Below are positions 1,986-29,558 of a stretch of 46,498 nucleotides of DNA, piece after piece. Source of the stretch: a virus. The notes under the pieces are model-generated. The model ran no database searches. It was given only the letters and a program-made list of their open reading frames with translations, and was not told where the DNA came from. Position 1 is the stretch's first letter; every line of letters starts with the position of its first letter. The DNA is taken from positions 1 through 46,498 of IMG/VR virus record IMGVR_UViG_3300043777_000187. One strand, given 5' to 3'. A program made the translations under genes and the position numbers.

Positions 1986-3590
1986 ATGAACATCAATCGA
2001 TTCACCGCTTTCGGCCTGCTGGCGCTGGCCCTGTCTTTCACCGCACTCGCTCAAAATCGCACCAAGTTTACCGGCCGGATCTCGGCGTTGGACTATGCCT
2101 TCGGCATTGGCGGTGGCGGCACCGGGATTCCCGGCCCGCTCGTGATTGGCGGTGGCCCCTACACCACCGGCACGCAAACTATCACAGTGGCCTTCGGCTA
2201 TGCGGTCGCGGGCGATGGAACCACATTCTACCCGCTCAACATCAATGCCCCGATCCTGGTCGGTGGCCCCTCGAATCAGGAGACGGTGACGCCCACGGCC
2301 GTGAGTTGTTCGACGCCCGCCGTCTATAACAGTTGCAGCTTTACCGCGAGCTTCGCCAATGCGCACGGGTTCGGCGAGAACGTCGCTTCAGCCACCTATG
2401 GGCTATCGGAGGCCGTCAACCTGGCTGGCAGCAGCACTGGCGGCATGGTGGATCTCAGTGCCTCCTGGGCCACGGCCGGAGGCACCAACGCTACCATCGC
2501 TCTGGTGACCCCGCTTTGGAATGTCGGTATCGAGGACATGCGCAGTACCCCGCTTCGCTACTGGGGAGCGCAGCCAACCACGCTCTCCACGATCGCGGCG
2601 CCAACCACCTTGACCAATACGACGGTGACCTTCACCGCTTCGCCGGTGGGCACCTGGGGCACCTCGGCGTACTACTTCTGCATCACCTATGTGGATATCC
2701 TGGGAGGCGAGAGCGCCTGTTCGGCCAGTTACACTCAGACGCCTGGCACCACGGCTTATTCGCTGAATATCACCAGCCCTGCCGCCTCCGCCGGCGCGGT
2801 GGGTTGGCGGGCCTATGGCGGCGTCACCTCGACCGCGCTGGCCTACCTGCTGCCCATCACCTCGACCAATTGCACGCTCACCACGCTCGAAGGCGTGATG
2901 CCGGCATGCGCGATCGGCTCGAATGCCGTGTTCCCAGCGATCTACGTGACGACGGGCGCGCTATCGCCGGTGATCACTCCGGTTACGAGCGTGAACAACC
3001 CGGTTCCGCAGAGTCATACCACATTCGCCTATCAGCCTTCAGGCGTGCCTCCGGTCCCATTCCAAACAAACTACGGCCCCTTTGGCGCAGCGGCGGTATC
3101 GTCGGCCGCTTCTGCCGCGACTACGATATTGGGGACCTTCGAACTCCCTGCCGGATATCTCAATTGGATCGGCCGCACCGTCCGGGTGACGGGCAAGATC
3201 AAGTTGACGGCCGGCGCGTCAAGCACGCTATCGATTCAGACCGGCATGGTGTGGGCGGCCGGCGTGGTGGCTGGACTCCCAACCGCAGTCTGTAACTCCG
3301 TGAGCGGCTTCGTGTTTGCTACGCAGCCGTACACCGATGTCAGTTTTCGGTGCGACATGACCACCAACGCAGTCGGGGCCACTGCGGTTGGTTCGATCAT
3401 GCCGGACTCATTCTTCATCGCCAGCTATGCGGCGGGAACCTTGATTCCGGTTGGCGCCGACACCAGCGCCGCGGCGATTGGCTCTCTCGGGTTATTCGCG
3501 CAGGACGAATTCTCGATTTCGATCCTGCCCTCCGTCGCCGCCGACACCACCGTGCAACTCATGAGCCTGCACATCGAAACCATTCAATAG
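1986..3590 (+). CDS. Putative secreted or virion beta-rich protein with signal peptide
   Basis: A 534-residue protein whose N-terminus is a textbook Sec signal peptide: MNINR, a hydrophobic core (FGLLALALSFTALA) and a likely cleavage site before QNRTKF. The rest is Gly/Thr/Ser/Ala-rich beta-type sequence with four or more Cys, like surface adhesins or phage fibre and spike proteins. A segment near residues 200-310 (VTFTASPVGTWGTSAYYFC... ) resembles an Ig/fibronectin-like fold. It sits in the structural operon ahead of the portal. A signal peptide is unusual for a phage structural protein, because virions assemble in the cytoplasm. Function unknown. Confidence 0.7.
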   Translation: MNINRFTAFGLLALALSFTALAQNRTKFTGRISALDYAFGIGGGGTGIPGPLVIGGGPYTTGTQTITVAFGYAVAGDGTTFYPLNINAPILVGGPSNQETVTPTAVSCSTPAVYNSCSFTASFANAHGFGENVASATYGLSEAVNLAGSSTGGMVDLSASWATAGGTNATIALVTPLWNVGIEDMRSTPLRYWGAQPTTLSTIAAPTTLTNTTVTFTASPVGTWGTSAYYFCITYVDILGGESACSASYTQTPGTTAYSLNITSPAASAGAVGWRAYGGVTSTALAYLLPITSTNCTLTTLEGVMPACAIGSNAVFPAIYVTTGALSPVITPVTSVNNPVPQSHTTFAYQPSGVPPVPFQTNYGPFGAAAVSSAASAATTILGTFELPAGYLNWIGRTVRVTGKIKLTAGASSTLSIQTGMVWAAGVVAGLPTAVCNSVSGFVFATQPYTDVSFRCDMTTNAVGATAVGSIMPDSFFIASYAAGTLIPVGADTSAAAIGSLGLFAQDEFSISILPSVAADTTVQLMSLHIETIQ

Positions 3591-3605
3591 AAAGGAGATA
3601 ATCTC

Positions 3606-3641
3606 ATGCCCGGGGACCCAATCATTATCATTGTCAACTAG
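3606..3641 (+). CDS. Tiny 11-residue ORF with strong ribosome site
   Basis: MPGDPIIIIVN follows AAAGGAGATAATCTC, a near-ideal Shine-Dalgarno sequence and spacing. It ends 15 bases before the next start, which has its own AAAGGAGG. It may be a real micropeptide, a leader that couples translation, or a remnant of a longer gene. Evidence is only the ribosome site and position. Confidence 0.3.
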   Translation: MPGDPIIIIVN

Positions 3642-3656
3642 CCAAAGGAGGCTGCT

Positions 3657-3839: not shown

Positions 3840-3848
3840 GAGGTTTCC

Positions 3849-4184: not shown

Positions 4185-4278
4185 TAGTCCCGCTGGACGC
4201 CGCGCTCTTGGTGGCCCTCGGGCGGTAAAGGAATGGAACGATTCCACCGATCAATCGAATCTGCCGGAAAGGACGGGA

Positions 4279-4458: not shown

Positions 4459-4685
4459 CGGGCACCGAGAAGCTACAATCCGTCGAGCGCCAGATTGCCA
4501 CATGCGAACTGCTGGGTATCTACCATCTAACGTGCCCCTACTGCGATGCGGAGAACAATGCCGAGAGCGAGGCGCTGTGCTGCGAGTTGCTTGGCAAGGC
4601 CGTGAAGGCCATCCTGCACCGCAAGGCAATCCAGGATCATTTCCGGGAGTTGGATGAGCTTTACGAACGGGTAAGCCGGAACTGA
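4455..4685 (+). CDS. Small Cys-rich helical protein
   Basis: A 76-residue protein coupled to its neighbours by overlaps on both sides (ATGA at 4455, one base shared with the portal start at 4685). It has a CPYC pair near residue 28 and a CC pair near residue 42, so a small zinc site is possible. The rest is helical and charged. I do not recognise a family. Position directly before the portal suggests a head-related or regulatory role. Confidence 0.6.
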   Translation: MTGTEKLQSVERQIATCELLGIYHLTCPYCDAENNAESEALCCELLGKAVKAILHRKAIQDHFRELDELYERVSRN

Positions 4686-7075
4686 TGGCGCCGCTCCCCG
4701 ATGTCGAAGACGAAGACCTGGACCAAACCCCAGAAGATCCTGAACCTCAGTACGGCCCGAACAACGAGGACCTCCCGGAACAGATTGTCAACGCCCTGAA
4801 AAGCGTGATCGTAGAATTCCAGGGCCACGAAAAATACACTCGCCGCCGGGAAGTCATTCACAGCCGCAAACTTCTGTTCTACGACCGCGGTCACCAGCAC
4901 ATCACCTGGTCGAACCAAGGCAACTCCTTTTTCATTCAGAGCGCTGGTGGAATGGGCTACAACAGCCAAGGCCAACAGGTCCAATGCCCGGCTTACATAG
5001 ATGATTTCAACATCTTCCAAGCGTTCGTAAATATTATCGAGTCCGTCCTTACGCAGAACCCGCCGGGCGTTAACTTCCAGCCGATCGATCCTAGCGTTCC
5101 CGAAGATATCGACAAAGCGCACTCCGCCGAGGATTACAGCCACGCCTGGGACCGGATGAACGACCGGCCCGCGATCCAAAAGCAGATTGTCCGTATGTTC
5201 TGCCTGAGTGGCCGCACAGTGAGTTGGACGCGCACGGAAGAGGATGGCCAGCGGTTTGGATACGATGAGCAGGGCAAACCTAAGAAGTTCCAGCGCACCA
5301 CGATCCACGGGACGCTGGAAACGAAAGTTCCCATCACGGCCAAGGAATTCGACAAGGATTTCCTTTACTGCATCGTCTACGACGATCCCGATGTGAAGGT
5401 AGCCAAGGAAGCCTACCCCAAGATCAAAAAGAAGATTAAGGCCGGTACTGCGGCACTGGGCGAAAACAATTACGAGCGCACGGCCAGGCTGGGCGTGCTC
5501 AACGGAAGCCGGTCGCAGGTCCAGATCGGGGATTCCTATACGCACCTGGTGAGCCGGGCGAACGTCTTCCTGCGGCCGGCCGCCTTCGAAGGTGAGCTTT
5601 TCGATCAGCCGCTCGAAGAACCGGACGATATCCTCGACACGATCAAGGACGAGGAAGAGCCGGACGAAGAAAAATCCGATTCCTTTTCGCGTGATCAAAA
5701 CAACACGCCCTCGACACGCCGGGTGATGACTATCCGCGAAAAGCTTCAGCAGATGTTTCCGCATGGCTGCCGATCGGTCTGGGTGGGAGACACCTATGCA
5801 CAGAGTTTCGCCGAATCGATGGACGATCATGTAGATGTGCGTTTCCCCTACGAAGGCGAAGGCATGTTCCGCATGGCGGTCATGGACCCGCATATCGTCA
5901 ATCAGGATTTTTTCAACGATACGCTGAATGGCCTGCGGGAGGGCATCGACACCGGCTGGCCCGATATCTGGTTCGACTCGGAAGATGAAGACTTGGACGC
6001 CGTGCGCAGCCAGCGGAGCGCGCCAAACTCCGTTCGCGGGTTCAAATGCCGGGATCCGAAGACGATGGCGCAGAGCATCTACCAGACCAAGATGTTCGAT
6101 ATCCCGGCCAGCTTGGAGACTGTGCTGCAGCTTCTGATGGGCGAGTTGCCACAATTCCAGCTTGCCACCCCGCCGGCGGTTTTCGGCGCCAGCATGGAGG
6201 ATCAGAAGACGGCCAGCGGGTACGCTCAGGCGCGCGCCCAGGCCATGGGCCGGCTGGGGGTGCTCTGGGGCAGTCTCCAGCGCATGTTCGCGCGCATCCG
6301 CTACCAGGCGGCGCTTTGCGCGGCCAATTGCGACCAGCAGACCGGCCAGATGACCATCCCGTCGCCCACGGGCGGCCAGCCGATCCGCGTGGATATGGAC
6401 CGGCTGCGGAAGGGCAATTTTGGCTGCTACCCGGATGAGGATTCCAGCTTCCCCGAGAGCACGCAACAGAAACGGGCCACCGTAGATAAGCTAATCGCGG
6501 CGAGCGCGACCAACCCGGCCATCGCGCAGCTCGTGAACAACCCCGATAATATCGCCACGTTCAAGCGGTACGAGGGGTTGGATGAACTGGTGTTTCTGCC
6601 GGCGGAGGCGCGCGACAAGCAGCTTGCCGAGATTGAAATCCTGATTAGCCAAGAGCCGATCGGATGGGTACCGCCGGAAATGATGGATCGGGCGCAAGCT
6701 GCCTGGCAGGTTGGCGCTACCCAGGCGCAACTGAGCGGGATGCCCGCGCCGCCGCCGCCCAACGATCCCGCCGGACTTCAGCCTTCCGTGCCAATCCGTC
6801 CATTGGATTATGATCAATGGGAAGGGCCCAAGTGTCAGGAATGGCTTTCAAGCAAGGCTTGCCGCGATGAAGAGGCCAAAGGAAACTTCGCTGGAGTGGC
6901 GAACGTGACAGCGCACGGGATGAAGCATTTGGCGCGTGCCGCGGCAAAAGCTCAGGCCATGCAGGCCGCTATGGGCCCGCCGCCGCCGATGGTTCACAAG
7001 CCGGCTGCTCCGCCGCCACCCGCTGGGGGGCCGCCAGCCGCGCCCAGCGCTCCGCCAGCGGAACCATTGATGTGA
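4685..7075 (+). CDS. Portal protein
   Basis: A 796-residue protein, the length class of large short-tailed phage portals. Portals form the dodecameric ring at one head vertex through which DNA is packaged and ejected. The N-terminus is acidic and Pro-rich; the middle is a long alpha/beta region with many Trp, Tyr and charged residues; the last ~110 residues are Pro/Ala-rich repeats (for example PPPMVHKPAAPPPPAGG) and probably disordered. The acidic insert around residues 315-340 (DTIKDEEEPDEEKSD) is notable. The call rests on overall character, length, and position before scaffold and capsid genes. The start overlaps the upstream stop (TGATG). Confidence 0.75.
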   Translation: MAPLPDVEDEDLDQTPEDPEPQYGPNNEDLPEQIVNALKSVIVEFQGHEKYTRRREVIHSRKLLFYDRGHQHITWSNQGNSFFIQSAGGMGYNSQGQQVQCPAYIDDFNIFQAFVNIIESVLTQNPPGVNFQPIDPSVPEDIDKAHSAEDYSHAWDRMNDRPAIQKQIVRMFCLSGRTVSWTRTEEDGQRFGYDEQGKPKKFQRTTIHGTLETKVPITAKEFDKDFLYCIVYDDPDVKVAKEAYPKIKKKIKAGTAALGENNYERTARLGVLNGSRSQVQIGDSYTHLVSRANVFLRPAAFEGELFDQPLEEPDDILDTIKDEEEPDEEKSDSFSRDQNNTPSTRRVMTIREKLQQMFPHGCRSVWVGDTYAQSFAESMDDHVDVRFPYEGEGMFRMAVMDPHIVNQDFFNDTLNGLREGIDTGWPDIWFDSEDEDLDAVRSQRSAPNSVRGFKCRDPKTMAQSIYQTKMFDIPASLETVLQLLMGELPQFQLATPPAVFGASMEDQKTASGYAQARAQAMGRLGVLWGSLQRMFARIRYQAALCAANCDQQTGQMTIPSPTGGQPIRVDMDRLRKGNFGCYPDEDSSFPESTQQKRATVDKLIAASATNPAIAQLVNNPDNIATFKRYEGLDELVFLPAEARDKQLAEIEILISQEPIGWVPPEMMDRAQAAWQVGATQAQLSGMPAPPPPNDPAGLQPSVPIRPLDYDQWEGPKCQEWLSSKACRDEEAKGNFAGVANVTAHGMKHLARAAAKAQAMQAAMGPPPPMVHKPAAPPPPAGGPPAAPSAPPAEPLM

Positions 7076-7082
7076 GGAGATT

Positions 7083-8410: not shown

Positions 8411-8773
8411 ATGCCGGCATACGGAACAGTGCAGGGCGGTGGAGTGCTCACCCAGCTCAACGCTGGCGATCAGATGTACCTGTGGAATGCGGAGACCCCC
8501 GTGGCCGGGACGGCCAGCCTGGCGTTTGCCCGCGGCTCCGATCCGGTTGCCGGCCAGCCGAATCTGATCGTCTTCACGATCTCGTTTGCCACGGCGCCCA
8601 CCGATGTGGTGAACATTCAGGGCAGCAACGATCTGGTGAACTGGGAAACGCTTTACACCTCGACCAGCACCTCGCCAGATTATTACGGCGATGCCGGCGG
8701 ATTCGCCTTCTACCGGGCATTGCTGGTATCGCAGTCGGGCGGTGGCGCGGTGACGGTGATCGCGAATAGGTAG
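8411..8773 (+). CDS. Small beta-rich structural protein, possible head decoration
   Basis: A 120-residue beta-type protein (MPAYGTVQGGGVLTQL...). It contains NIQGSNDLVNWETLYTST, a pattern often seen in phage structural and Ig-like proteins where a 'noise or distance' type strand-turn-strand repeats. Size and place after the scaffold fit a head decoration or stabilising protein, but a fibre-associated role is equally possible because the next two genes encode adsorption proteins. Confidence 0.55.
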   Translation: MPAYGTVQGGGVLTQLNAGDQMYLWNAETPVAGTASLAFARGSDPVAGQPNLIVFTISFATAPTDVVNIQGSNDLVNWETLYTSTSTSPDYYGDAGGFAFYRALLVSQSGGGAVTVIANR

Positions 8774-8776
8774 ACC

Positions 8777-10843
8777 ATGCGGAAATGGAAAGCACCAATC
8801 TGGCTTGCGGGCATTGTCGCAATGCTCATTTTACTGCCAGATCTCGATAGCCAGCCTCTGAACCCGATCACCTACACCACCACCACGCCCGTGACTTGCG
8901 GCCCGCGTAGCGTTTATCTGCTCACGCCAAATGGCACGATGTACACGTGCGCCAACGGGACACCAGAGGCGCTGGGCACGGGGAGCGGCGGGGGCGGCCC
9001 GATCACTTCATTCACCGTTCCAGTTGTTGCCGGTACGGCGTGCATCATTGTTCACGGTCTCGGCCTGGCAACGCCATACTACCCTTTGTGGAGTTGTTTC
9101 AATTCGGCCGGTCCAATTATCGCGATCGGGCTTTCGGCTGAAACCACCAACGGCTTGACGATCACGGACACGAATAGTGAGACGATCTCTTGTGTGATGG
9201 GGGGCGCCACAGGCAGCACTGGGGCCGGTGGTGCGCTGGGCACAATCGCCTGCGGCGGGAATACGATCAGTCCCACCAGCACCCCGACGTACACGGCTAC
9301 GCAGTCTGTTTCGACAGCTTTTACCTGTACCGGGTGCACCTCGGCGTCATGGAATTCAACCGGACTGAGCGGCTCCGGTCTTAGCATCAGTGGCTCAGGC
9401 AGCAGCGCCAACTTGGTCGGCACAGCCGTGGCTGGCACATACGCAGGCGTGGTCATTTCCTATGGTTCAGTCAGCACATCCCCTTTTACCGTCACGATCA
9501 ATGCAGCCCCGAGTACCGGCACGTGCGGAGGGACTGGGCCGCCGAGTTGCCCCGGCGCGACGAACGGAAGCCCGTATGGCCCTGAAGCCGTAGTGGTCAC
9601 CGGTGGAACTGGTACGGTCACGCTCAACGTGACTTCCGGCGCCCTCCCGAGCGGCGTTACTATATCTGCTCATACCTTGACCGCCACCAATGTGACCGCG
9701 ACGGCTGGGACCTATAACTTCGACCTTGCCGGAACCGACGCCAACAGCGTGCAAGGTACTCCAGTGGCCTATTCGATTGTGGTGGCCGGCGGCGGGGGCG
9801 GGGGAACTTTCGCGCACTACTACGCAATCACCGCCGGAACTGTCACCGGCACTTTGACCAATTTCCCGTGGTGTATCAACACCGGTAATTCCAGCTTCTC
9901 CGCCGGGTGCGCTCCGTTGAACATCGCTTCCAGCCTTAACTCTTCAATCGTAAACACGGTGACCCAATCGACCGGCGTCAGCGTCGTTGAGCCGGCCGAC
10001 GCGGTGCTCACAGCAACCGCTCCAGGGGGATCGACCGGCGCATGGACCTGCCCCAGCACGGCCTATATTCCATGGGAAACGGAAGCATATAGCGCCGGGT
10101 CCTGGATAGTCCACGCTAAACCTGCCAGCACGGCGACTGGTGGTGTGGTCTACATCTGCTTCGGGCAATCCGCGATGACAACCCAGCAGAACACCAGCGG
10201 GAATTCGGCGGCCCCGGCCTCGGTGTGGAGCGCCTACAGTAGCGTTTACCATCACGCCAACGTAAGTAGCGCTTTGAGCCTTGTGGATTCCACCGGCAAT
10301 TCCAACGAAACTGCTACAGGTTCACCGACGACATTTGCCTCCCTAATCGACGGTGGCGTTGCATTCAACGGGTCCAATGAACTTTCATTCACAAACCAAG
10401 TAACTTCGGGTAACAATTTAACTATTAGTGCTTGGGTAAATACATCCACTACGGGAATCCAGATTTTTGTGGACCAGAGGAATTCAGGCCTGACAACCGG
10501 CTGCATACTCTACATGCACAACGGCTCAGGGGCTGTGGAGTTCTTCTGCGTTCCTTCTCCGGTTGCAGGTTCCGGTGCGAATTTTGCAGACGGCAACTGG
10601 CACTATTTTGTCGGTACGGTAAATTCATCTACTATTACATTTTATGCGGACGGATCAAGTTCCACTAACAGTGGCACCATTACCCCTGGAGCTAGCACCG
10701 TGTACATAGGTGAGAATAGCTTTACAGGAAATATAGATGAGGTTCGCATGTCCAGCGCCACTATGACTGCCGCCTGGGTAGCAGCAGAGTACGCCAATCA
10801 AAAAATAAGCAGTACGTTCTTGACGGCCGGGAGCGAGCAATGA
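8777..10843 (+). CDS. Receptor-binding-type protein: signal peptide, Ig-like and LamG-like domains
   Basis: A 688-residue protein. Residues 1-26 look like a Sec signal peptide or membrane anchor (KWKAPIWLAGIVAMLILL). After a Ser/Thr/Gly-rich region, an Ig-like putative domain spans about 250-340 (GGTGTVTLNVTSGALPSG, VTATAGTYNFDLAGTD). A Gly hinge follows, then a DUF2341-like segment (about 345-460), and a C-terminal concanavalin/LamG-like domain (about 500-680) with GNWHYFVGTV and GNIDEVRMSSATMT, typical of carbohydrate binding. It probably acts at the host surface. Its end overlaps the tailspike gene start (ATGA). Confidence 0.7.
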   Translation: MRKWKAPIWLAGIVAMLILLPDLDSQPLNPITYTTTTPVTCGPRSVYLLTPNGTMYTCANGTPEALGTGSGGGGPITSFTVPVVAGTACIIVHGLGLATPYYPLWSCFNSAGPIIAIGLSAETTNGLTITDTNSETISCVMGGATGSTGAGGALGTIACGGNTISPTSTPTYTATQSVSTAFTCTGCTSASWNSTGLSGSGLSISGSGSSANLVGTAVAGTYAGVVISYGSVSTSPFTVTINAAPSTGTCGGTGPPSCPGATNGSPYGPEAVVVTGGTGTVTLNVTSGALPSGVTISAHTLTATNVTATAGTYNFDLAGTDANSVQGTPVAYSIVVAGGGGGGTFAHYYAITAGTVTGTLTNFPWCINTGNSSFSAGCAPLNIASSLNSSIVNTVTQSTGVSVVEPADAVLTATAPGGSTGAWTCPSTAYIPWETEAYSAGSWIVHAKPASTATGGVVYICFGQSAMTTQQNTSGNSAAPASVWSAYSSVYHHANVSSALSLVDSTGNSNETATGSPTTFASLIDGGVAFNGSNELSFTNQVTSGNNLTISAWVNTSTTGIQIFVDQRNSGLTTGCILYMHNGSGAVEFFCVPSPVAGSGANFADGNWHYFVGTVNSSTITFYADGSSSTNSGTITPGASTVYIGENSFTGNIDEVRMSSATMTAAWVAAEYANQKISSTFLTAGSEQ

Positions 10844-12411
10844 GACTTCTCACCTTATTAACGCTATCCGCATTCTCTCTCGCCAATCCGGCGCATCCTT
10901 TCCGTCGCTGGAACCCCGCGAACCTTCGGAGTCTGTTCCAGACGAATTCAATCAATGCCCCAACGGTATTTGGAGGATCGGTAACAATTAACAAGACGCC
11001 ACCGCAGTACTGGGTAACGCCAGAGCAGTTTGGGGCTTATGGCGACAATTCGCACGACGACACGACGGCCATAAATAATGCCATCTCGGCACTGCTCACT
11101 TCAGCATTGTGTACTCAGACGGTGACCTGTGAGCTTAGATTTCAGGCGAAAACCTACAAGACGACCGCGCCCGTTACGCTGGCTGGGTCCTACGTGACTA
11201 TCGTCGGGCAAGGGATGTTCTCCACTTTTATCAGTAACACGGCGACAACGGGAGACGGACTAGACATCACCGGTACAGGCTCCAACTGCGCAACAGGGGC
11301 GGCCTTCTGGAATACGGTCAAGAGTCTTCAGATTACACGTCCTAATGCAGCTACAGCAGGTGTCGGCTTGAATATCCTCGATGCTTGCTGGACAAAGATA
11401 TCCGATGTTCAACTGACCTATAACTACATTGGACTAAATGTCTCATCTAGTGGACAAACCGTCATTCAGGATACCCAAGAGTCGGCAGCAGCCGGTTCCC
11501 CTTATGGATTCCAGCTTTCCGGAGGGCTTTCGTCTACATATATAAGGCGTGGAGTTTATGATGGCACACTGAATACTAACCATATTGGACTTTACATGTC
11601 TAGTTGTCCATCGGACACGTTTATTAGCGATTTTACCGGTGCTCATGGTGCTTATGGAATTCAAGTTAACGGTAGTACGGAAAGCGGGGTAAGCATCTGC
11701 AATGGAGATGTCCACCTCGACCATCCGGTTCTAGATTCATGTCTTATTGCCTGCATCCAGATCAACAATCTGAACTCCGGTGGCTTGGCCGCAGTGGACA
11801 TTGACGGCGGGTACGCCAGCACACTTGCTACGGGTATAGACCTTGAGAACGTGTCGGGGGCTAGCGTGCGCGGCGTCCAGATTCGCAACGGTACAGGCGC
11901 CTCTGGCACCATAGGTCTGAACATCGCGGGAGGCAGTTCGAACGCGGACATCATCACGGGCAACGTGATTCAACAAGTCATTACATGCGTAAGTGTGAAC
12001 GGTAGCGGCAACCATATCATCACAGGCAATACCTGTACTGCGATCTCGGCGCAGCCGATCACGACTGGCTTCAACTTCGTGAGCCTGACGAATAGCATTG
12101 TGCGTAATAACGTGATGGGCGGCAGCTTCACCACGTCGTTTAGCTTCGATTCCGGCTCGAACAACAACACCGCGGATGGCAACAACGGTTTCGCATACAG
12201 CACGGTTTCGAACTCAGGCGCGGGAAACAACTTTGGGTTCCTAGGCTCCTACACGATCTCTGGCCTGCCATCTTGTGGGTCTAGCATCGTTGGCGCAAAG
12301 GCTGCGATATCAAACGGCCTCGCAACGGTGACCTTCCAACTTGCTGTGAGCACTACCGGATCGACCATCCAGCCGGTTACCTGTCTCGCCTCAGGTTGGG
12401 TGTATCAGTGA
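10840..12411 (+). CDS. Pectate-lyase-3-type beta-helix tailspike with signal peptide
   Basis: A 523-residue protein. After a short signal-like N-terminus (MRLLTLLTLSAFSLANPAHP), the motif FGAYGDNSHDDTTAI at about residues 66-80 is the classic opening of the pectate lyase superfamily 3 fold found in tailspikes that cut host polysaccharide. It is followed by many short Gly/Asn/Thr turns (GNHIITGNTCTAI, SIVRNNVMGG) of a right-handed beta-helix. The C-terminal 60 residues look like a small trimerisation or binding domain. Base composition appears more AT-rich than its neighbours around 10400-11700, as expected for an exchanged receptor-binding gene. Confidence 0.75.
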   Translation: MRLLTLLTLSAFSLANPAHPFRRWNPANLRSLFQTNSINAPTVFGGSVTINKTPPQYWVTPEQFGAYGDNSHDDTTAINNAISALLTSALCTQTVTCELRFQAKTYKTTAPVTLAGSYVTIVGQGMFSTFISNTATTGDGLDITGTGSNCATGAAFWNTVKSLQITRPNAATAGVGLNILDACWTKISDVQLTYNYIGLNVSSSGQTVIQDTQESAAAGSPYGFQLSGGLSSTYIRRGVYDGTLNTNHIGLYMSSCPSDTFISDFTGAHGAYGIQVNGSTESGVSICNGDVHLDHPVLDSCLIACIQINNLNSGGLAAVDIDGGYASTLATGIDLENVSGASVRGVQIRNGTGASGTIGLNIAGGSSNADIITGNVIQQVITCVSVNGSGNHIITGNTCTAISAQPITTGFNFVSLTNSIVRNNVMGGSFTTSFSFDSGSNNNTADGNNGFAYSTVSNSGAGNNFGFLGSYTISGLPSCGSSIVGAKAAISNGLATVTFQLAVSTTGSTIQPVTCLASGWVYQ

Positions 12412-13075: not shown

Positions 13076-14353
13076 ATGCCCGCTGGGAGTGTATCTCAAA
13101 ACATCGCATCCCAAATTGAATATATCCGCAAAGACCTTGAGGAACTTGTTCTCCTTCAAGGAGTTCTGCGTAAGCGGATCTCCAAATCCACCGACATCAA
13201 AGCCATTTCGAACCGCCCGGCGCGCATTCCGTTCAACGTGCTCACTGGCGGCCTCTTCCGCACGGGCGCCGCCCTATTCGATGGCAACGATCTGGGCCGC
13301 GGTTCCGCGCCTACCGAAACTTTCGGCAACTTGAGCGCGATTCCCTTCGTTCAGGCGTCGGAATACACCTCGCTCTCGGAATTCTCAACCGACAGCACCG
13401 AAAAAGCCATCGAGAATTACGTCACCCTCACCAACCGCCAGGCCACCGAGACCTACGCGGGCTACATGGATGCGTTGTACGCCAATTCCACCGGCGCCAA
13501 CGATCTGGACACCGTGGTTTCGGTTTCGGGCAATGAAATCGTCGTCAATAACGCCGATATCTTCCAGGACAACCAGATTGTGGACATCTGGACGGCCATT
13601 GGCGGCACTTTCCTTGGCTCGTGGCAGATTCAGTCCATCGACAGCTCCAACACGGCCCTGTGGGGCACTGTGGCCCCCCCTGTAGGCACTGTGGCGGGCT
13701 GCGTTCTCATGGTAACCGGCAGCTCAGGCCAGGCCAACTCGGGAATTCCCGGAATCCTCAGCTATCACGTGGGGACCAATACCGGGAACTTCATGGGCAT
13801 CCCGCGAAGCGCCTTCCCTGGCAAGTTTGCGACTCCCTACGTCTCTCCCGGCGGCGCGGCGGCCACCGGCCCGCTCACTCCGGCCAACGTGCGCGCCATG
13901 CTGAACCAGATGAAGCTGGCCATGGGCGCGGACACCGATGAGACGGAATTCGTGGTTCACGGCAACGTGGATACGCAAGCCGCCTGGGAAAATAACGCTC
14001 TGCCGGTCCAGACCATTATCTACAACGAGTTGAAGGGCGACAACTCCGCCGACATGCTCAAGAAGAACATGCCCACGGCCATCGCCGGCCGCGAGTTCCT
14101 ACTGAACGTGCGCGCCAAGCCGGGCCGGATCGACGGCCTCAATCTGAAGCACTGGTTCCGCTTGGAAACCAAGGCGCTCGACCTGCACGAAGTCGGCGGC
14201 CAGACGCTATTCCCGATCTACGGCGCGTCCGGCGGCCTCAATTCCAGCCAGATATTCTACTACGAGGCGATGGAGACCTTGGGGCTGGGGCAGCCGAGGC
14301 GGGATTGCTACATGCCCTCAATTACAATTCCTCCCCGTTATTTCGGACATTGA
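13076..14353 (+). CDS. Major capsid protein
   Basis: A 425-residue protein with CAGGAG before ATG 13076. Its N-terminal helix region (SQIEYIRKDLEELVLLQGVLRK) is followed by the strand-rich segment typical of HK97-fold capsid proteins (PTETFGNLSAIPFVQASEYTS) and an alpha/beta core ending in a basic, aromatic C-terminus. Residues about 135-220 (VVSVSGNEIVVNNADIF...VAGCVLMVTG) look like an inserted beta domain, as capsid proteins of several phages carry. Length and central place in the head gene cluster agree. No prohead protease is visible, which suits scaffold-assisted assembly. Confidence 0.7.
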   Translation: MPAGSVSQNIASQIEYIRKDLEELVLLQGVLRKRISKSTDIKAISNRPARIPFNVLTGGLFRTGAALFDGNDLGRGSAPTETFGNLSAIPFVQASEYTSLSEFSTDSTEKAIENYVTLTNRQATETYAGYMDALYANSTGANDLDTVVSVSGNEIVVNNADIFQDNQIVDIWTAIGGTFLGSWQIQSIDSSNTALWGTVAPPVGTVAGCVLMVTGSSGQANSGIPGILSYHVGTNTGNFMGIPRSAFPGKFATPYVSPGGAAATGPLTPANVRAMLNQMKLAMGADTDETEFVVHGNVDTQAAWENNALPVQTIIYNELKGDNSADMLKKNMPTAIAGREFLLNVRAKPGRIDGLNLKHWFRLETKALDLHEVGGQTLFPIYGASGGLNSSQIFYYEAMETLGLGQPRRDCYMPSITIPPRYFGH

Positions 14354-16633: not shown

Positions 16634-16641
16634 GATAGAGC

Positions 16642-16899
16642 ATGTCGCCTGGTTTTACCAAATTCCGCAAAAAGCCCGTTGTCATCTCCGCTGTTCAGTG
16701 GACGGGAGCGAACGTCGATGAGATTTTGGGATTTATCCTGCCGGTTGGGAGCGCCCGGCGCGCAGGAAATGATCTCCTGATCGAAACCCTGGAAGGAACA
16801 ATGTCGGCCTCTCCGATGGATTGGATTATCAAGGGCGTAAAGGGCGAATTCTACCCTTGCAAGCCGGATATCTTCGCAGCAACCTACGAGCCTGCCTAA
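16642..16899 (+). CDS. Conserved small phage protein (FRKKPVVI...WIIKGVKGEFYPCKPDIF)
   Basis: An 85-residue protein of a family I recognise from many phages and prophages: FRKKPVVISAVQWTG at the N-terminus, ETLEGTMSASPMDWIIKG in the middle and GEFYPCKPDIFAATYEP at the end. The biochemical role is unknown. It is inserted between paralogues A and B and its stop overlaps the next ATG (TAATG at 16897-16901), so all are probably translated from one message. Confidence 0.85.
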   Translation: MSPGFTKFRKKPVVISAVQWTGANVDEILGFILPVGSARRAGNDLLIETLEGTMSASPMDWIIKGVKGEFYPCKPDIFAATYEPA

Positions 16900-17732: not shown

Positions 17733-17791
17733 GCGACATTGTCGAGGATGGAATCATCGATGCAATCCCATCCTCAATAATATGCCGGTAA
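17729..17791 (+). CDS. Possible 20-residue coupled ORF
   Basis: ATG 17729 overlaps the stop of paralogue B (ATGA), giving MSDIVEDGIIDAIPSSIICR. The DNA inside forms a hairpin (GAGGATGG 17744-17751 with CCATCCTC 17768-17775). It may be a micropeptide, or only spacer DNA with a processing or attenuating hairpin. No other support. Confidence 0.2.
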   Translation: MSDIVEDGIIDAIPSSIICR

Positions 17792-17812
17792 ATCATCCGT
17801 AAGGAGTGAAAT

Positions 17813-18640
17813 TTGCCTATAATTCCTCCACCGACCGCGACCCCCTACGACACGGTGAGCTTCGTGCTCGATGCCGCCCGGGTGCGTCTAAATGACGAAG
17901 TGAAGACGCTCCAGCCCACCCGCGGCCAGATCCTCAAGAACAACAATTACTTCACCCTCCAGATTTCGAACAACGGTTGGCGGAAGATGCAGGACTTCCT
18001 GGGCAATCTGGGCATGACACGATTCCGCGGCGAGCAGATCGTTTACGCGCTGCCGCCGACCGCGCCCGCCACCGACCCGGGCGTCTTCGCTTACATCAAT
18101 TGGTTCAATTACTTCGACGGCGCGAATATTTGGAATGCGCCCGTGCTGCCGGCCGACTTCGCCTATCCGCTGTGGGTGAAGGAACGCCAGAACGGATTCA
18201 ATACCACTTTCCGGCCCATGGAGAATTTCATGGACGGACTGCCGACTTGGCCGAAACTTCCTTGCAATGGCCGCTGGGAGTGGCGCGACGATTCGATCTG
18301 GATGCCAGGCAGCACCTATACCATGGACCTGCAACTCCGGTACGGGAAGTACCTGCCAGACTTCGCCGATGCGGGCAACACTCAGTGGTTCCAGGGTACC
18401 GTGCCGCTGGTGCATTGCTCCGATCCGCTGAGCAACTTCGTCTGCGCGGAGTTGGCGGAGGCCCGGCAGGATTTGGGGATCGATCCGCTGCCGTTCCGCG
18501 AGAAGGGCGAAGCCGGCGCCCGCAGGCTAATGAACCGGGATATCGGCATGAAACAGCGGGTGAACCAGCGGCGGCTCTCGCGGTCTGGTAGGCTTGAAAG
18601 CGGCTGTGGCGACGGGTATAGCTACGGCTGGGGAGGCTAA
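17813..18640 (+). CDS. Connector/tail-type paralogue C (TTG start)
   Basis: A 275-residue third member of the local family, starting at TTG 17813 behind AAGGAG. Shared blocks: ARVRLNDEV, NNGWRKMQDFLGNLG, FAYINWFNYFDG, PLWVKERQNG, FRPMENFMDGLP, WEWRDDSIWMPGS, LRYGKYLPDFAD and CSDPLSNFVCAELAEARQDL. It is closer in pattern to A than B in several blocks. The C-terminus is basic and Arg-rich. Divergence among the three copies indicates an old duplication with possible specialisation, for example stacked rings of a short tail. Confidence 0.65.
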   Translation: MPIIPPPTATPYDTVSFVLDAARVRLNDEVKTLQPTRGQILKNNNYFTLQISNNGWRKMQDFLGNLGMTRFRGEQIVYALPPTAPATDPGVFAYINWFNYFDGANIWNAPVLPADFAYPLWVKERQNGFNTTFRPMENFMDGLPTWPKLPCNGRWEWRDDSIWMPGSTYTMDLQLRYGKYLPDFADAGNTQWFQGTVPLVHCSDPLSNFVCAELAEARQDLGIDPLPFREKGEAGARRLMNRDIGMKQRVNQRRLSRSGRLESGCGDGYSYGWGG

Positions 18641-19022: not shown

Positions 19023-22000
19023 GTGGCGTTCAACAAAAGTGGCGGCAAGGATGTAGCCCTTTCGGTATTCGGCGGCCTTGTCACTGAAATGGCCGCGCCG
19101 GATCTTCCGGAGGGTGTCAGCCCCGCTTGCCAGGATGTCGCTTTCGTCCCCGGCTCGGCCTTCAGCCGCCCCGGCCTTGCCAAATATTTCGCCACGGCTC
19201 TTTCGGCCGGCGGCCCTCTCGACTTAGTTCCGACCGTCACCTACGGAAAAACCTTCATTACCCCGCTCGGCGTCATCTATAACCTATGGCTGGACTCTAA
19301 TGGCCTCCTGTACTACGAAAATGTCTCCACCGCGCCCGGCGTGGTCAATGTGCTGGCGGCGGTCCAACCCGGCTCCTACGCCAAATCGGTGACGGCCTTC
19401 GGACGCGAGTACATTGCGATAAGCGATACCCAGCATGGCTCCGATGTGCCGTTGCAGTGGGATGGAACCAACCTCGACAGAGTGACGCAGGACGGCCCCG
19501 GGGCGCCACCAGTGGTGGCCTCGGTGACTCTGCCGCCGGTCGAGATGGAAGCCAGCTCGCTTTCGCCGGTCACGCCTGTCGAAGCAGACCCGGCTACGCT
19601 GGTGGGCGGCCAGTACACCCAGATCAACCTCTTCACCAGCAGTAGCGTGGCGGGCCTGCTGGTAGGCCAGCAGATCACCATTGCCGGGTACACCGGCGGC
19701 ACCCATACGGCCATGAACGGCACGTGGACGATCTTGACGATCTATCCGGGGAGCCCAAACAGCCTGATCGTCGTGTCGGCCATCTTGCCATCGACTACCG
19801 TCTACAGCACTCAAACCAGCGGAGTTACCTGGGTGGTTGTGACCGGCTTCACCATGCAGCGCGCCAACAATGTGGTGACGGTGACGACTTCCGAGCCGCA
19901 CAACCTCCAGCCGGGCTTTCAGGCGCAGATCACCGGGATTCCAACAGCGGCGGTGGGCGGGGGTATCGCCAGTGTCGTTATCGACAATGAGGATCTTCCC
20001 GGCGAGGCCACGGTCACCACCAACGATCCACATGGGCTGCTGCCGGGCTGCCTGGTGTCGCTCACCGGGATTTCCGGGGTAGCCGTTGGCACAGCCATCA
20101 CGTCGGCGGTCTGGAATGGCGGATTAGTAACAGTCACCACCTCGGCGGCACATGGATTGGCGCCCGGCGCCAATATCACAATCGCTACGACGGGCGATAC
20201 CCCCGCGGGTTACTTCGACGGCACATGGACGGTCATCGACACGCCGACGACTACGACTTTCACTTACGTCTACAGCCCCGTAACTGCACCAACAGCCAGC
20301 GCTACAGGTGGAACGGTTAAACTCAACTGGCCAATTCCAGACGAACCGGACCCGACTTATTACGAGGTCATCACCGCGCCGACGCCTACCAGTTTCACGG
20401 TCCAGATCACCTACTGCGATTCCACCTTCGCCTCGGGCACGGTGAGTTTTCCATGGAACGGAACCTTCTTTGTCCTCGCGGTTCCGGCCAGCGATGTTTT
20501 TCAGTACACCCAATACGGCCCAGACGCCACCACCACCACCACGGGCGAAGTCACGCCCTACGGCCAGGCCGCGCCAGGCATCCATCAGTGCAGGGTTTCT
20601 TTTCTCACTAGGAATGGCTTCATCACGGAACCCAGCCCGCCGGTCACCTTCGTAGCCAATGGCGGCCAATATGTCTCACTTACCCAACTTCCGGTGGCGT
20701 CTTCCGCGGCGGTGGTGGCGCGCGTCGTTCAATTCACCGGCGCCGGCGGGGCCTATTTCTTCTATATCCCCACGCCCGCGCAGATCGACGGCCAGCAGGT
20801 GAGCACGGCGACTCAGATCAATGACAACGAGACCACGGCGGTACTGCTCGACTTCAGCGACAATACCCTGTTCGCGGCAGAGGGAGTTTCGATTCCAGGC
20901 AACGATATCGCGGCGCAATCGCCTATCGACGGCGCGCTGGGCTTCGGCTTCTACGCCTCGCGGCTGCTCACCTGGGGCCAGCGGAATCGCATCGACAATC
21001 TGCTGAACATGGGTTTTGCAGGCGGATATGGCTTTGTAAAATCCGGCCAGATGTGGATCCCAACGGATGCCGGAGTGCCGCTCGGTTGGACCTCGCCGAC
21101 CGGGATGGGAGGAAGCATTTTACAGAACGGCCATTTCGGCACCGTCCTGGACTTTGAAGCCGCCGGTAACAGTTATACGACCATCGAACAATCCGCCTAT
21201 CTGGATGCCTACGGATCGCCAATCTCGACGCCCAACGCACAATACAGGCTGCGCCTATGGTGCCGTGCAGACGTTCTTTCCAACAATTTCAATCTGCTGG
21301 CCGTTTTCAGCAGCACCTCCACCAGTTTCTCATCGAGCGCGGAGATTCTGGGGAGTGCCATGACATCGGCGGCCGCAGGCGAATACCTGGAATCGCCGTT
21401 CAACAATCCGATGCCGGCGGCGATCCCTTCGGATATGGTGTTTGCCTTGATTTTCACCAACACTACCGCCGCGCCGTACACCATGCAGTTAAACGAAGTT
21501 TCGGTGCTTTATGCCACTAACCCCTACACCGATACGGTATTCAACGTCTCTTACGACCAGAACCCGGAAGCCTTCGACGGCGTAACCGGCGTGATGGGTA
21601 GCGACGAAGATACCCGCAAAATCATGGACTTAGGCGGGATCATCCGCGAGACGCTGTATTTCCTCACCGAGGAGCCTTCCGGGCGGCTGCATCAGACCGC
21701 CGACAACGGGGTGACGGAGCCGAGCGGCTGGACGGTGAGCCAGGCGGCGGCCAACTGCGGTGTGCTCTCGGCCTTCGCGGTGACGCGCAGCCAGGCCGAC
21801 GACGCCACGGCCTCCGGTGGGGAGGAATGGTTCGCCTGGGCCAGCACCAGCGGCGCGCGGATGTTCGGCGGCGGTGGCGATCCCGGCAAGATCAGCCAGG
21901 AGATTCAGCCCAACTGGCAGCAGTTCGCCGCGCCTTACCAGCAGACCGCCTGGGCGCTCAACGATTATGTGAACCGGGTGCTCTACTTCGGGCTGTGCGT

Positions 22001-22673
22001 GGGCGGCAACACCGCGCCGAGTGTGGTCTACCAGTGCTCGTACCGCGAGCTCGACACCGCCTACCAAATCATCACCTCGGGGCCGATCCACACCAGCTTC
22101 ACGGGCCGGCTGATCGCCACGGACCATACCCGCAAGTGGGCGCCATGGAACGTGATTGCCAACGGGGCGGCCATTATGTACTCGGGGCCGAACGCGGCAC
22201 AGGTGATTTTCTTCGGTGGCAACGGGCAGACGCCGGGCGCCGCGGCGGGGCATGGAAACGTCTATAGCCTGAGTGCGGCCAAGCTCACGGACGACGATTA
22301 CGGACAGATTTACCCTTTCTACGCCACCTATTTCTTCGTGTCGCACGACGCCGAACAAGCGCTCTTTGCGCCCAATGGAGGTGGCCGGAAACTGCTGCAG
22401 TACGTGCAAGCGTATGTCTCGGGGGTGGGCAACCTTACGCTGACATTCTTCCCTGACCGGCTCGGTAATCCGTGGGCGCTCACCGTGACGCGGACGCTTT
22501 CGCTGACGCCGAATTACGATCTGGAGTGCGCCGGCGGGAACGCGCAGGGGCAGCGGATCGCCATCCAGTTCAGCGTGTTACCGGCCACGGGGACCGATGT
22601 TTCTTTCAACCTTGAAAAAGTGATCGCCAATCTCAAGCTCGTTACGCATCTGCCGATCCGCGGTTCTGTGTAA
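19023..22673 (+). CDS. Large tail/virion protein with repeated HGLxPG modules
   Basis: A 1216-residue protein, the largest here, starting at GTG 19023. The N-terminal region (SVFGGLVTEMAAPDLPEG) resembles openings of phage tail hub or tube proteins. Residues about 280-400 contain three repeats of the type VTTSEPHNLQPGFQAQITGI, VTTNDPHGLLPGCLVSLTGI and VTTSAAHGLAPGANITIAT, small beta modules common in phage tail proteins. The C-terminal half is beta-rich with a propeller-like look (YFFVSHDAEQALFAPNGGG). It has no tape-measure features such as long helices. A central short-tail or nozzle component is my best guess. Confidence 0.6.
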   Translation: MAFNKSGGKDVALSVFGGLVTEMAAPDLPEGVSPACQDVAFVPGSAFSRPGLAKYFATALSAGGPLDLVPTVTYGKTFITPLGVIYNLWLDSNGLLYYENVSTAPGVVNVLAAVQPGSYAKSVTAFGREYIAISDTQHGSDVPLQWDGTNLDRVTQDGPGAPPVVASVTLPPVEMEASSLSPVTPVEADPATLVGGQYTQINLFTSSSVAGLLVGQQITIAGYTGGTHTAMNGTWTILTIYPGSPNSLIVVSAILPSTTVYSTQTSGVTWVVVTGFTMQRANNVVTVTTSEPHNLQPGFQAQITGIPTAAVGGGIASVVIDNEDLPGEATVTTNDPHGLLPGCLVSLTGISGVAVGTAITSAVWNGGLVTVTTSAAHGLAPGANITIATTGDTPAGYFDGTWTVIDTPTTTTFTYVYSPVTAPTASATGGTVKLNWPIPDEPDPTYYEVITAPTPTSFTVQITYCDSTFASGTVSFPWNGTFFVLAVPASDVFQYTQYGPDATTTTTGEVTPYGQAAPGIHQCRVSFLTRNGFITEPSPPVTFVANGGQYVSLTQLPVASSAAVVARVVQFTGAGGAYFFYIPTPAQIDGQQVSTATQINDNETTAVLLDFSDNTLFAAEGVSIPGNDIAAQSPIDGALGFGFYASRLLTWGQRNRIDNLLNMGFAGGYGFVKSGQMWIPTDAGVPLGWTSPTGMGGSILQNGHFGTVLDFEAAGNSYTTIEQSAYLDAYGSPISTPNAQYRLRLWCRADVLSNNFNLLAVFSSTSTSFSSSAEILGSAMTSAAAGEYLESPFNNPMPAAIPSDMVFALIFTNTTAAPYTMQLNEVSVLYATNPYTDTVFNVSYDQNPEAFDGVTGVMGSDEDTRKIMDLGGIIRETLYFLTEEPSGRLHQTADNGVTEPSGWTVSQAAANCGVLSAFAVTRSQADDATASGGEEWFAWASTSGARMFGGGGDPGKISQEIQPNWQQFAAPYQQTAWALNDYVNRVLYFGLCVGGNTAPSVVYQCSYRELDTAYQIITSGPIHTSFTGRLIATDHTRKWAPWNVIANGAAIMYSGPNAAQVIFFGGNGQTPGAAAGHGNVYSLSAAKLTDDDYGQIYPFYATYFFVSHDAEQALFAPNGGGRKLLQYVQAYVSGVGNLTLTFFPDRLGNPWALTVTRTLSLTPNYDLECAGGNAQGQRIAIQFSVLPATGTDVSFNLEKVIANLKLVTHLPIRGSV

Positions 22674-23656: not shown

Positions 23657-23708
23657 AATGACCCTAATGCTGTGAAATGTTGAAGAGAACCTTGTCTTCC
23701 GATGTGAT

Positions 23709-24375: not shown

Positions 24376-24393
24376 AGTGATAGGCTTGAGCAG

Positions 24394-24948: not shown

Positions 24949-24949
24949 T

Positions 24950-26455: not shown

Positions 26456-27786
26456 ACGATTGGCAGACTGTCAAGGGTGCCGCTGAGCCGGCCGATTGGC
26501 AGACTGTGGGTGCCGCGCCCCCTATTCCCGGCATGGAACAACTGGGCGGTTCAGCCCCGCCCCCGGTTGCGCCGCCCAATCCCATCCTGAATGGTCCAGG
26601 ACCATGGCTTCCGCGTTTCGGCAATTCGCTCGGCCAGAGCGCTAAAGGTATCGTCATGGGCGCGGTGCCCGGTCTCTCGGAAACCGTTCAAAATGCCCGT
26701 GCGCTCAGCCGCGGCGGTCTGCCGGAAGTCCAGCGGGTACAGATCGAAGGCAATCCCATCAATCAGGCACTACAGGGGGTTCGCGGCATGGGTCCGGTGA
26801 CTATGCGCGACGTGCCGGAGATCGCCGGGCGCATGGCCGCGCCGTTCCTTCCTGGCGGTCCACAGGTGGTACAGGGCAGCGAGCAGTTGGCACGTGGCCA
26901 GACTGCCGAGGGGCTTGGAACGCTAGCACTTCCAGCGGCCATGATAGTGGGGCCGAAAGCCGCGGAAGGCGTAGGCGCAGTAGCGGAGCGGGGGCTGCGT
27001 TCTCCGTTCAGGATGGGTGAGCCGCTATTGCCGGATTTGCCCATGACCGGGCCAAAGTACGGCGCCGCCCAGAAAATCAGCGGAATACGCCTGCAATCGC
27101 CTATCCAGCCGCCCACGTACTCGTTGCCGCCACCGCCCGCCTTCCTGCCTGGGCGGCCGCCGGGTATTGTTCCCACTACCACTGAAGCGCCGCCGTTTCT
27201 CCAGACTCCGCCTGCAGGTCCTGGATCAGAAGCGCCCGCCTTCCTGCCCGCGCGGCCGCCCGCCGCCGAACCGCCGCCGAACCCGATTCCCCGTGGCAAC
27301 GAAGCACCTTCTGGGCCGGTTGGCATGGTCCGTCCCACACCGGCCGTTCCGCCTGGCCGCCCCGCGATCGCGCCGCCAATGCCTTCAGGCCGCGGCCTTC
27401 AGATGCCCGCCGGGATGCCGCGGCCCATCGCGCCCGCAGTTCCTGGGCCGGAAGCCATCGCATCAGCGCCGCCTGCCGGTCCCACCATCGCCCCACCGGT
27501 GCCGCCTTCGCGCGGGATAGTGGACATTCCCCGTACGCATCCCGAGGCGCAGCCCGCCATTGTCACCGGCCAGCGGCTGGCGCGCGCCGCTACAGCCAGC
27601 GGCATCGTGGGCGATCTGAAGGCCGCCGGGTATACTCTCGAAGATCTGCCGGCGGGCGACGATGTGAAGGGCTGGCAAAAGCTCTTCGACACCGCCCAAT
27701 CGCCGTTCCGCAAGACGCCGGAAGCCCAACGGAAGATGATCGACGCGGTACGGGCGGAATTCGGGCGGCAAGGGAAACCCCAATGA
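26428..27786 (+). CDS. Pro-rich candidate virion protein
   Basis: A 452-residue protein. DWQTV occurs twice near the N-terminus (about residues 11 and 24), a short motif I have seen repeated at the start of other phage internal proteins. Residues 50-200 are Gly/Ala/Leu-rich with a hydrophobic stretch (GTLALPAAMIVGPKAAEG). Residues 230-375 are nearly all Pro, Ala, Gly and Pro-Pro-Ala repeats (AFLPGRPPG, AFLPARPPA) and are surely disordered. The last 80 residues fold as a small helical domain. Likely an ejected or internal protein. Confidence 0.5.
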   Translation: MAAGPASQVNDWQTVKGAAEPADWQTVGAAPPIPGMEQLGGSAPPPVAPPNPILNGPGPWLPRFGNSLGQSAKGIVMGAVPGLSETVQNARALSRGGLPEVQRVQIEGNPINQALQGVRGMGPVTMRDVPEIAGRMAAPFLPGGPQVVQGSEQLARGQTAEGLGTLALPAAMIVGPKAAEGVGAVAERGLRSPFRMGEPLLPDLPMTGPKYGAAQKISGIRLQSPIQPPTYSLPPPPAFLPGRPPGIVPTTTEAPPFLQTPPAGPGSEAPAFLPARPPAAEPPPNPIPRGNEAPSGPVGMVRPTPAVPPGRPAIAPPMPSGRGLQMPAGMPRPIAPAVPGPEAIASAPPAGPTIAPPVPPSRGIVDIPRTHPEAQPAIVTGQRLARAATASGIVGDLKAAGYTLEDLPAGDDVKGWQKLFDTAQSPFRKTPEAQRKMIDAVRAEFGRQGKPQ

Positions 27787-29558
27787 AACCCGCTATCATA
27801 TTCGCAACCGCTATCGTATTCGCAACCGTAGCGCCGGCCGCCGTGGTCTACCGGGTGGACCCGACGCCTGTCCAGACGACCGCAGGCAATGCGCCCACCG
27901 GCGGCTTCCCGGCGGTCTTCGCGGTCGCCAACGCCACGATCAGCCTGTGCTCCGACCAGGCATGCACCATCCCAGTGGCGTCCTACACGGACATCACCGG
28001 CAGTCTTCAATGCGCTACGCTCAGCCCGGTAACTACCGTAGGATCTCCAGTTTGCAGTGCGACGACCAACCAGCAGGGCGGCTTTGGCTTCTGGCTGGCC
28101 TCGGGGACGTATTACTACACCGTGACGCTGCCCACACCGCCCGGCGGTACCTATGGCCCCTACGCGCTCACCGTTCCGGCGACCGGCCTCCCGAGCTCAT
28201 CGCTGCTTTCGCCGCTCAATTTCGGCGGCACTTGCAATGGCACAACTAACGACACTACGGCGGTAGCGCTGGCCGTCTCGGCGCTGGGATATCTCTGGAT
28301 TCCGCCGGGCCTAACGTGTGTAACCTCAACGGTGAGCGTCACCGCGCCTAATTTCGTTGTCTTCGGCGGCGGAGGCTTGAAACTGCTGGCCGGCACCAAT
28401 GGCGACTTGCTCCACTTCGACGGCAGCGGCAATACCGCCTTGAACGGCTCGCATTTCCAGGTAGACGGAATGTTGCTCGACGGCAATTTCAACGGGCAAA
28501 CCGGCGGCACGGGAAATGTAATCTTCCTGCGGAACGCATCGTATTCGACCGTGACCAATAACTACATTCATTCGGCGCGCGGAGCTGGCGTTCACATCGA
28601 AAATTATAACGCCTCGAATTATGCGGACGAAGTGAACATTGGGCCGAATAACTTCATCTTCGGCAATGGGACGAACGGCGTTGAAATCGTGCCTGCTTCG
28701 AATTCCTCCACTTACCAGCAGCCGGGGGATCATATCGTCGTTGACAACCACATCAATTACAATACGGGCAATGGCATTTACGGCCAGTTTCTCACGTCCA
28801 GCCTGATTCAGGGAAACAATGTTCTAACCAACGGCGCCCAAGGCATTTATTTAACCGCCGCCGATAGAGTTACGATTTCGAATAACGCCGCGCGAAACAA
28901 CACCGGAAACGGGCTGTTTGTCACTCAGGACGCCACTTTCGGAAGGTCCAAAGACATTCTCGTGGAAGGCAACAATTTCCATTACAACTCGTTCGCCGGA
29001 ACCGGCAATTCCGATGAAGCGGACATCTTCTATACCGACCGTTTGCGCGTGCTCGGAAACTATTTAGGCGACACCGATTTCACGGCCAGAGCTAACTATG
29101 GACTGCAACTCTCGAACGACACAGTTGTGGATATTGGCCATAATATCTGTTACAACCTCGTAGCCGGTTGCCTTCTGAGCAATGGAGACACTTACTCGGC
29201 TTACGGTAATTACGGCATTGCGGATTTTCAGGGACTTGCCTGGTCCGCGCCATCTCTACTGAATGGATGGAGCAATGTGGCGGCCGAGACTCCGGCTGGC
29301 TATACGATTAACTCAAACGGCTTCGTGCAACTCGAAGGAAATATCGGCGGAGGCACAATCACGCCGGGAACGGTGTTGTTCACTCTGCCAGCCGGCTACC
29401 GGCCCGTGGCGCCGCAGTTCGTGCCGATCGTGACGTACACGATCTCGGGCACCGGATACGGGGCGCTGGAGATTCTGGCGAATGGGAACGTGGAACTGGT
29501 GACCTCGATAGGCTCGGCCACCGGAGTAGTGCTCAATTCGAACTTCGCGGTGTTCTAG
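27783..29558 (+). CDS. Second beta-helix tailspike with signal peptide
   Basis: A 591-residue protein whose start overlaps the preceding stop (ATGA). Residues 1-20 (MKPAIIFATAIVFATVAPAA) form a Sec-type signal peptide. Residues about 20-140 are a beta domain with paired Cys. From about 145, FGGTCNGTTNDTTAVALAVS opens a right-handed parallel beta-helix, continued by many rungs with Asn ladders (NYIHSARGAGVHIENYN, NNAARNNTGNGLFV). The C-terminal 110 residues form a separate beta domain. It is the last gene of the rightward structural operon and overlaps the convergent methyltransferase by 26 bases. Confidence 0.7.
   Translation: MKPAIIFATAIVFATVAPAAVVYRVDPTPVQTTAGNAPTGGFPAVFAVANATISLCSDQACTIPVASYTDITGSLQCATLSPVTTVGSPVCSATTNQQGGFGFWLASGTYYYTVTLPTPPGGTYGPYALTVPATGLPSSSLLSPLNFGGTCNGTTNDTTAVALAVSALGYLWIPPGLTCVTSTVSVTAPNFVVFGGGGLKLLAGTNGDLLHFDGSGNTALNGSHFQVDGMLLDGNFNGQTGGTGNVIFLRNASYSTVTNNYIHSARGAGVHIENYNASNYADEVNIGPNNFIFGNGTNGVEIVPASNSSTYQQPGDHIVVDNHINYNTGNGIYGQFLTSSLIQGNNVLTNGAQGIYLTAADRVTISNNAARNNTGNGLFVTQDATFGRSKDILVEGNNFHYNSFAGTGNSDEADIFYTDRLRVLGNYLGDTDFTARANYGLQLSNDTVVDIGHNICYNLVAGCLLSNGDTYSAYGNYGIADFQGLAWSAPSLLNGWSNVAAETPAGYTINSNGFVQLEGNIGGGTITPGTVLFTLPAGYRPVAPQFVPIVTYTISGTGYGALEILANGNVELVTSIGSATGVVLNSNFAVF

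Follow-up and report, generated by a model that had tools for sequence, protein, structure and literature searches.

Predicted Sec leaders on fibre and spike proteins of a clade of short-tailed phages are consistent with a tail assembly stage outside the cytoplasm

The window analysed here is the 46,498-base virus record of a soil phage, the ends of which overlap directly (1-241 and 46258-46498, 99.6% identical). Because of this 241-base terminal overlap the genome is in all likelihood complete, and the terminase gene wraps round to the region of g1986. Gene order and family matches (terminase, portal, capsid and virion structural protein) mark a tailed phage, probably a podophage as judged by its layout, and the nozzle role given to the largest virion structural protein in Table 1 is the probable one for its position. 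Three tandem paralogous genes at 15803-18640 occupy the position of the tail tubular (gp11-like) protein, and an open reading frame upstream of the terminase gene (42498-43400) looks glycosyltransferase-like by eye.

Table 1 Features of the window discussed in the text; ^ marks a predicted cleavage site
Feature	Position	Strand	Evidence
g1986, 534-aa fibre-like protein between terminase and portal	1986..3590	+	leader score 4.56
g1986 predicted leader, 22 aa, MNINRFTAFGLLALALSFTALA^QNRT	1986-2051	+	scorer; leader in all close relatives
Portal protein, without leader	4685..7075	+	phrog_156, 6.6e-05
g8411, small structural-type protein, without leader	8411..8773	+	
g8777, 688 aa	8777..10843	+	leader score 3.10; PF13385, 5.9e-14
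g8777 predicted leader, MRKWKAPIWLAGIVAMLILLPDLDS^QPLN, weaker c-region	8777-8851	+	
g8777 LamG domain	about 10367-10783	+	PF13385, 5.9e-14
g10840, 523 aa	10840..12411	+	leader score 3.14
g10840 predicted short leader, MRLLTLLTLSAFSLA^NPAHP	10840-10884	+	
g10840 tailspike-type start	about 10924-11235	+	Klebsiella phage Dlv622 tailspike, E 9e-5
Major capsid protein, without leader	13076..14353	+	phrog_14242, 3.1e-05
1216-aa virion structural protein, probable tail nozzle, without leader	19023..22673	+	phrog_3287, 1.6e-05
g27783, 591-aa tailspike at podophage tailspike position	27783..29558	+	leader score 4.91; Beta_helix PF13229, 4.4e-12
g27783 predicted leader, 19 aa	27783-27839	+	
g27783 N-terminal head-binding-like domain, directly after leader, four conserved Cys	27840..28187	+	A6 alignment, AF2
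Terminase large subunit, without leader	44417..46063	+	phrog_2, 4.9e-11

Leaders were predicted with a home-made, rule-based scorer, distinct from SignalP, that looks for a net-positive n-region, a hydrophobic core of 9-12 residues and small residues at -3/-1. On E. coli controls it accepted 17/17 exported and 0/46 cytosolic proteins, and among the 102 coding sequences of lambda, T7 and epsilon15 a score of 3 was exceeded only by Lom, which is exported, and by two Rz spanins. Within the window 4 of 34 genes were accepted, and these are exactly the four (g1986, g8777, g10840 and g27783) to which the initial annotation had assigned Sec leaders, with none of them rejected. The scores are strong for g1986 and g27783 and weaker for g8777 and g10840, in which the c-region is also weaker, but both still lie above every cytosolic control. 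All four start codons are plausible, with either a ribosome-binding site or an ATGA overlap with the preceding gene.

The two weaker leaders belong to a block (8411-12411) that lies between the scaffold and capsid genes and also contains g8411. Homologues of g8411 stand upstream of the terminase in genomes G003, G004 and G005, and the one in G003 also adjoins a leader-bearing protein. The LamG-like domain already read in g8777 was recovered as a Pfam match. Of the two proteins described at first as β-helix tailspikes, g27783 retains that description, whereas a Pfam search with g10840 gave no match and only its start, residues 29-132, is tailspike-like. Relatives of g8777 and g10840 were sought in viral contigs and none were found. 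Other leader-bearing proteins seen along the way include one resembling a GH43-type propeller by eye (L031:1591-3921), beside which lies another of 218 aa, likewise leader-bearing, that contains a GKVGIDQTTPGTTNAV motif, and a 184-aa protein ending in ...GPNFRF that resembles a small outer-membrane barrel of the kind of lambda Lom (L023; G009:30452-31006, minus strand).

The strongest leader of the window precedes g27783, which follows the putative nozzle and internal virion genes, a tailspike position also found in G001, G009 and G010. The C-terminal part of the protein is common to Geobacillus phage tail fibres and the phrog_5339 virion structural protein; the whole protein as query returned no relatives, and only its N-terminal domain is shared. 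This domain of about 115 residues is constant directly after the leader, while the remainder of the spikes varies. Its profile matches 26 open reading frames in 33 related genomes, and a leader precedes the domain in 26/26, in 25 by the scorer and in G020 by eye (a hydrophobic start that ends GTAFG^Q); for 8 of the 26 the leader guided the choice of start, and an unbiased choice already gave 18/26 positive. Among core virion proteins 1/292 scored as leader-bearing, the lone match being the G009 scaffold, the start of which is probably wrong. The suggestion of export signals on the spike proteins of a tailed phage is thereby borne out, and it extends across the clade.

An AF2 model of the N-terminal domain (pLDDT 85.1, pTM 0.77) finds its closest solved structures in tail-complex chains of the cyanopodophages Pan3 (Z 6.6) and Pam1 (Z 6.3), with P22 tailspike entries, including the head-binding domain, at Z 4.2-5.2 and non-phage β domains (CnaB at Z 6.0, pilins) interleaved among them; all values are below 8, could reflect a common β-sandwich and would not alone settle homology. 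In BFVD, N termini of phage spikes lead the matches; phage pectate lyases come first, and tail spikes and tail fibres rank below them. Sequence searches of PHROG, Pfam and PDB with the domain gave no significant family. At these modest Z scores, the mature N-terminal domain looks like the head-binding domain of a podophage tailspike.

The leader of g1986 recurs in every close relative, where its residues have diverged but the n/h/c structure is kept, and the mature start (AQNRT/GQNRS) is constant in most of them. Relatives of about 40-60% identity sit between terminase and portal, with QNRT/QNRS in the nearer ones. A capsid-based scan with a four-sequence alignment (an alignment of seven was too diverse for scanning) yielded 51 loci, and a profile of the g1986 family found members in 48 of 57 loci. 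The family occurs in two forms, one leader-bearing and the other leaderless and beginning at the mature border (MANRTRFAG... versus A^QNRT...); 21 of the 42 distinct members carry the leader. Leader-bearing members are rich in cysteine and leaderless ones poor (Mann-Whitney p = 5e-6). Over the first ~180 shared residues the two forms are 37% alike, and leader-bearing members are 38% alike among themselves. An AF2 model of g1986 built on 8 sequences reached a pLDDT of 55 and was not used for claims about fold.

Placed on the capsid tree, the leader state of this family requires 10 changes, at least 7 of them on supported branches, whereas the family's own tree needs only 3. Because of this difference, the exported and cytosolic forms behave, as far as sequences can tell, as two alleles exchanged at one locus; many independent gains of the leader are not favoured by a family tree with so few changes. 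High cysteine content tracks the leader in 5-6 of 7 independent pairs on the capsid tree and never goes in the opposite direction. Such alleles suggest one task that either form may perform. We also considered whether exported g1986 and exported spikes switch together in each phage and rejected this, as spikes keep their leaders where the g1986 family member is leaderless (G013, G016, G018, G019, G029 and G031). G025 has two copies of the family (20017-20472 and 40877-41455; L124, L125): the neighbourhood of its portal gene and its spike region each contain one.

Among mature leader-bearing proteins of at least 200 aa with any cysteine, 51/56 have an even number, as do 36 of 40 clusters formed at 40% identity (p = 9e-8). 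The corresponding count for core proteins is 110/229, and the cysteine density per 100 residues is 1.86 versus 0.95 in the core. Within the window the mature proteins carry 8 (g1986), 16 (g8777), 12 (g10840) and 8 (g27783) cysteines. Two cysteines of the spike N-terminal domain never vary, and two others are either both present or both absent (17 both, 2 neither). Even and paired cysteines are the pattern predicted by oxidative folding, and the leaders look functional because the mature proteins have an even cysteine number. Export and oxidative folding of the leader-bearing proteins are thus well supported at the level of sequence, and cleavage of the leader and disulfide formation would be expected to accompany them.

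The predicted cleavage sites are of the A^Q type in 53 of 58 leader-bearing phage proteins, with g27783 and g10840 as exceptions in the window. Because the leaders run up to A^Q sites that look cleavable, just where the mature domain starts, the membrane-anchored assembly raised in the initial annotation is not favoured. Glutamine also occupies +1 in 15 of 25 predicted exported proteins of plasmid pACIX901 of the acidobacterium Granulicella (L034-L038); the match in style indicates that Acidobacteriota share the A^Q type, and the host of the window phage is probably a member of this phylum.

Two cultured podophages, Tunturi_1 and Tunturi_2, both grown on Tunturiibacter psychrotolerans X5P2 (PMC11924767; PP887698, PP885685), offer a parallel. 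Like the window phage they are podophages, and in their case the host belongs to the Acidobacteriota. Leaders occur in both on proteins of the structural region, annotated tail spike and structural proteins among them; Tunturi_1 has five, of which one is its annotated tail spike and another a virion structural protein. The four large leader-bearing proteins have even cysteine numbers. Neither 'signal peptide' nor 'mass spectrometry' occurs in the main text of the description (PMC11924767). Unlike the window phage, they belong to a different lineage, and neither the g1986 family nor the profile of the spike N-terminal domain found a match in them. Tunturi_3, on the same host strain, has no leader among the proteins tested, which indicates that the trait belongs to the phage lineage and not to the host.

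Folding and assembly of tailed-phage virion proteins are generally regarded as cytoplasmic, and P22 tailspikes can be added in vitro to finished heads as a last step; we know of no tailed phage that mounts its spikes after export. We lean, if only a little, towards a mechanism in which Sec exports the spikes, disulfides form as they fold in the periplasm, and lysis brings them onto the tails. On this view the host Sec system handles all four proteins, which would be fibres or spikes of a short-tailed phage; signal peptidase would cut the leader, mostly exposing an N-terminal glutamine, and disulfides would form in the mature proteins in the periplasm, with the main spike retaining its head-binding-like domain directly after the cleavage site. 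Mature spikes would wait there while particles are made in the cytoplasm, and assembly would finish with their binding to the tail hub when lysis opens the inner membrane. Any surplus would escape from the cell and could serve as free depolymerases or receptor blockers. It is the retained domain of virion-binding type that points to virion spikes that may mount after export, a reading beyond the three options first listed for these genes. The wider proposition is that part of virion assembly takes place outside the cytoplasm throughout a large clade of tailed phages, with some fibre genes as interchangeable exported and cytosolic alleles and with virion spikes bearing a head-binding domain; we regard it as an even call.

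The main rival, unlikely in our judgement but to be taken seriously, is that the proteins are exported and never join the virion, acting outside before or after lysis as secreted depolymerases, receptor blockers or decoys. Leaders, cysteine parity and the LamG domain fit ordinary secreted proteins, a leader-bearing protein of G003 resembles a GH43-type enzyme by eye, and parallels can be drawn with five unknown Q-rule exported proteins encoded by Porphyromonas phages (PMC10367356) and with bacterial WceF, a Tat-exported enzyme of tailspike-like fold (PMC7949094). The conserved N-terminal domain could instead bind a component of the host envelope. However, the 26 spikes keep this head-binding-like domain after the leader while their other parts vary, nothing else at that position in these genomes was recognised as a candidate tailspike, and exported and leaderless g1986 alleles substitute for each other at one locus.

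The capture of spikes from host surface proteins with the signal simply kept, an origin also contemplated at the outset, now seems very improbable. LamG and β-helix domains are common in host enzymes, and the A^Q leaders are in the style of Acidobacteriota exported proteins, but scans of the genome collection genome_contigs, which depend on short peptide patterns, found no relatives of the g1986 family or of the G010 spike start, so that recent capture has no support; moreover, the mature N-terminal domain is nearest in fold to phage tail proteins and the trait is conserved across the clade. Leaders that go unused, on spikes that remain cytoplasmic and employ the hydrophobic N terminus structurally in the virion, would agree with conventional tailed-phage assembly, and the predicted signal peptides of Porphyromonas capsid proteins have been attributed to prohead protease cleavage (PMC10367356). 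We nevertheless find this very improbable: the n/h/c structure and the A^Q site at the domain border are kept though sequences diverge, cysteine parity and enrichment indicate oxidative folding, and leaderless alleles start at the mature border. Chance hydrophobic N termini or wrong start codons might be suspected from a home-made scorer, from the spike starts picked with the leader in view and from the G009 scaffold, yet the near absence of accepted cytosolic controls and core proteins, the clade-wide recurrence and the cysteine parity make a prediction artefact exceedingly improbable.

Should the spikes indeed travel by Sec, a spike could use disulfides for stability in soil, its attachment would become a lysis-coupled step, and free spikes could get to the cell surface ahead of phage release. 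Filters that separate virion from secreted proteins by signal peptides would misclassify an entire phage group. The trait is open to direct experiment in the cultured Tunturi_1 and Tunturi_2, for which Tunturi_3, grown on the same strain, provides a natural negative control.

Individual features of this arrangement are found in several known systems. In substrates of the Q-rule, described as specific to Bacteroidetes (PMC5837995), glutamine at +1 is the feature in common with most of the phage leaders, and Acidobacteriota share it. The Nixviridae, phages of Porphyromonas gingivalis, encode proteins whose signal peptides follow the Q-rule of the host, although the five in question were read as possible outer-membrane modifiers and not as spikes (PMC10367356). 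WceF of Pantoea stewartii is likewise an exported trimeric β-helix with the fold of a phage tailspike, but it is a bacterial gene with a Tat signal, outside any phage structural operon (PMC7949094). The tail spike depolymerase of Klebsiella phage Dlv622 resembles the start of g10840 and, unlike it, has no leader. A comparison can also be made between g27783 and the P22-type podophage tailspikes. P22 gp9 and the Pam1 and Pan3 tail complexes have an N-terminal β domain whose fold may be similar, given the modest Z scores; the variable C-terminal receptor or depolymerase part and the location near the end of the structural operon are shared, and g27783, alone of the four proteins, has the β-helix body. 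Known podophage tailspikes, however, lack a signal peptide and are put together in the cytoplasm, whereas here a Sec leader is combined with conserved, paired cysteines; a tailspike of the P22 type would also be expected in the virion as a trimer. With a leader on every related spike, g27783 would work like a standard P22-type tailspike and yet is not filed as one.
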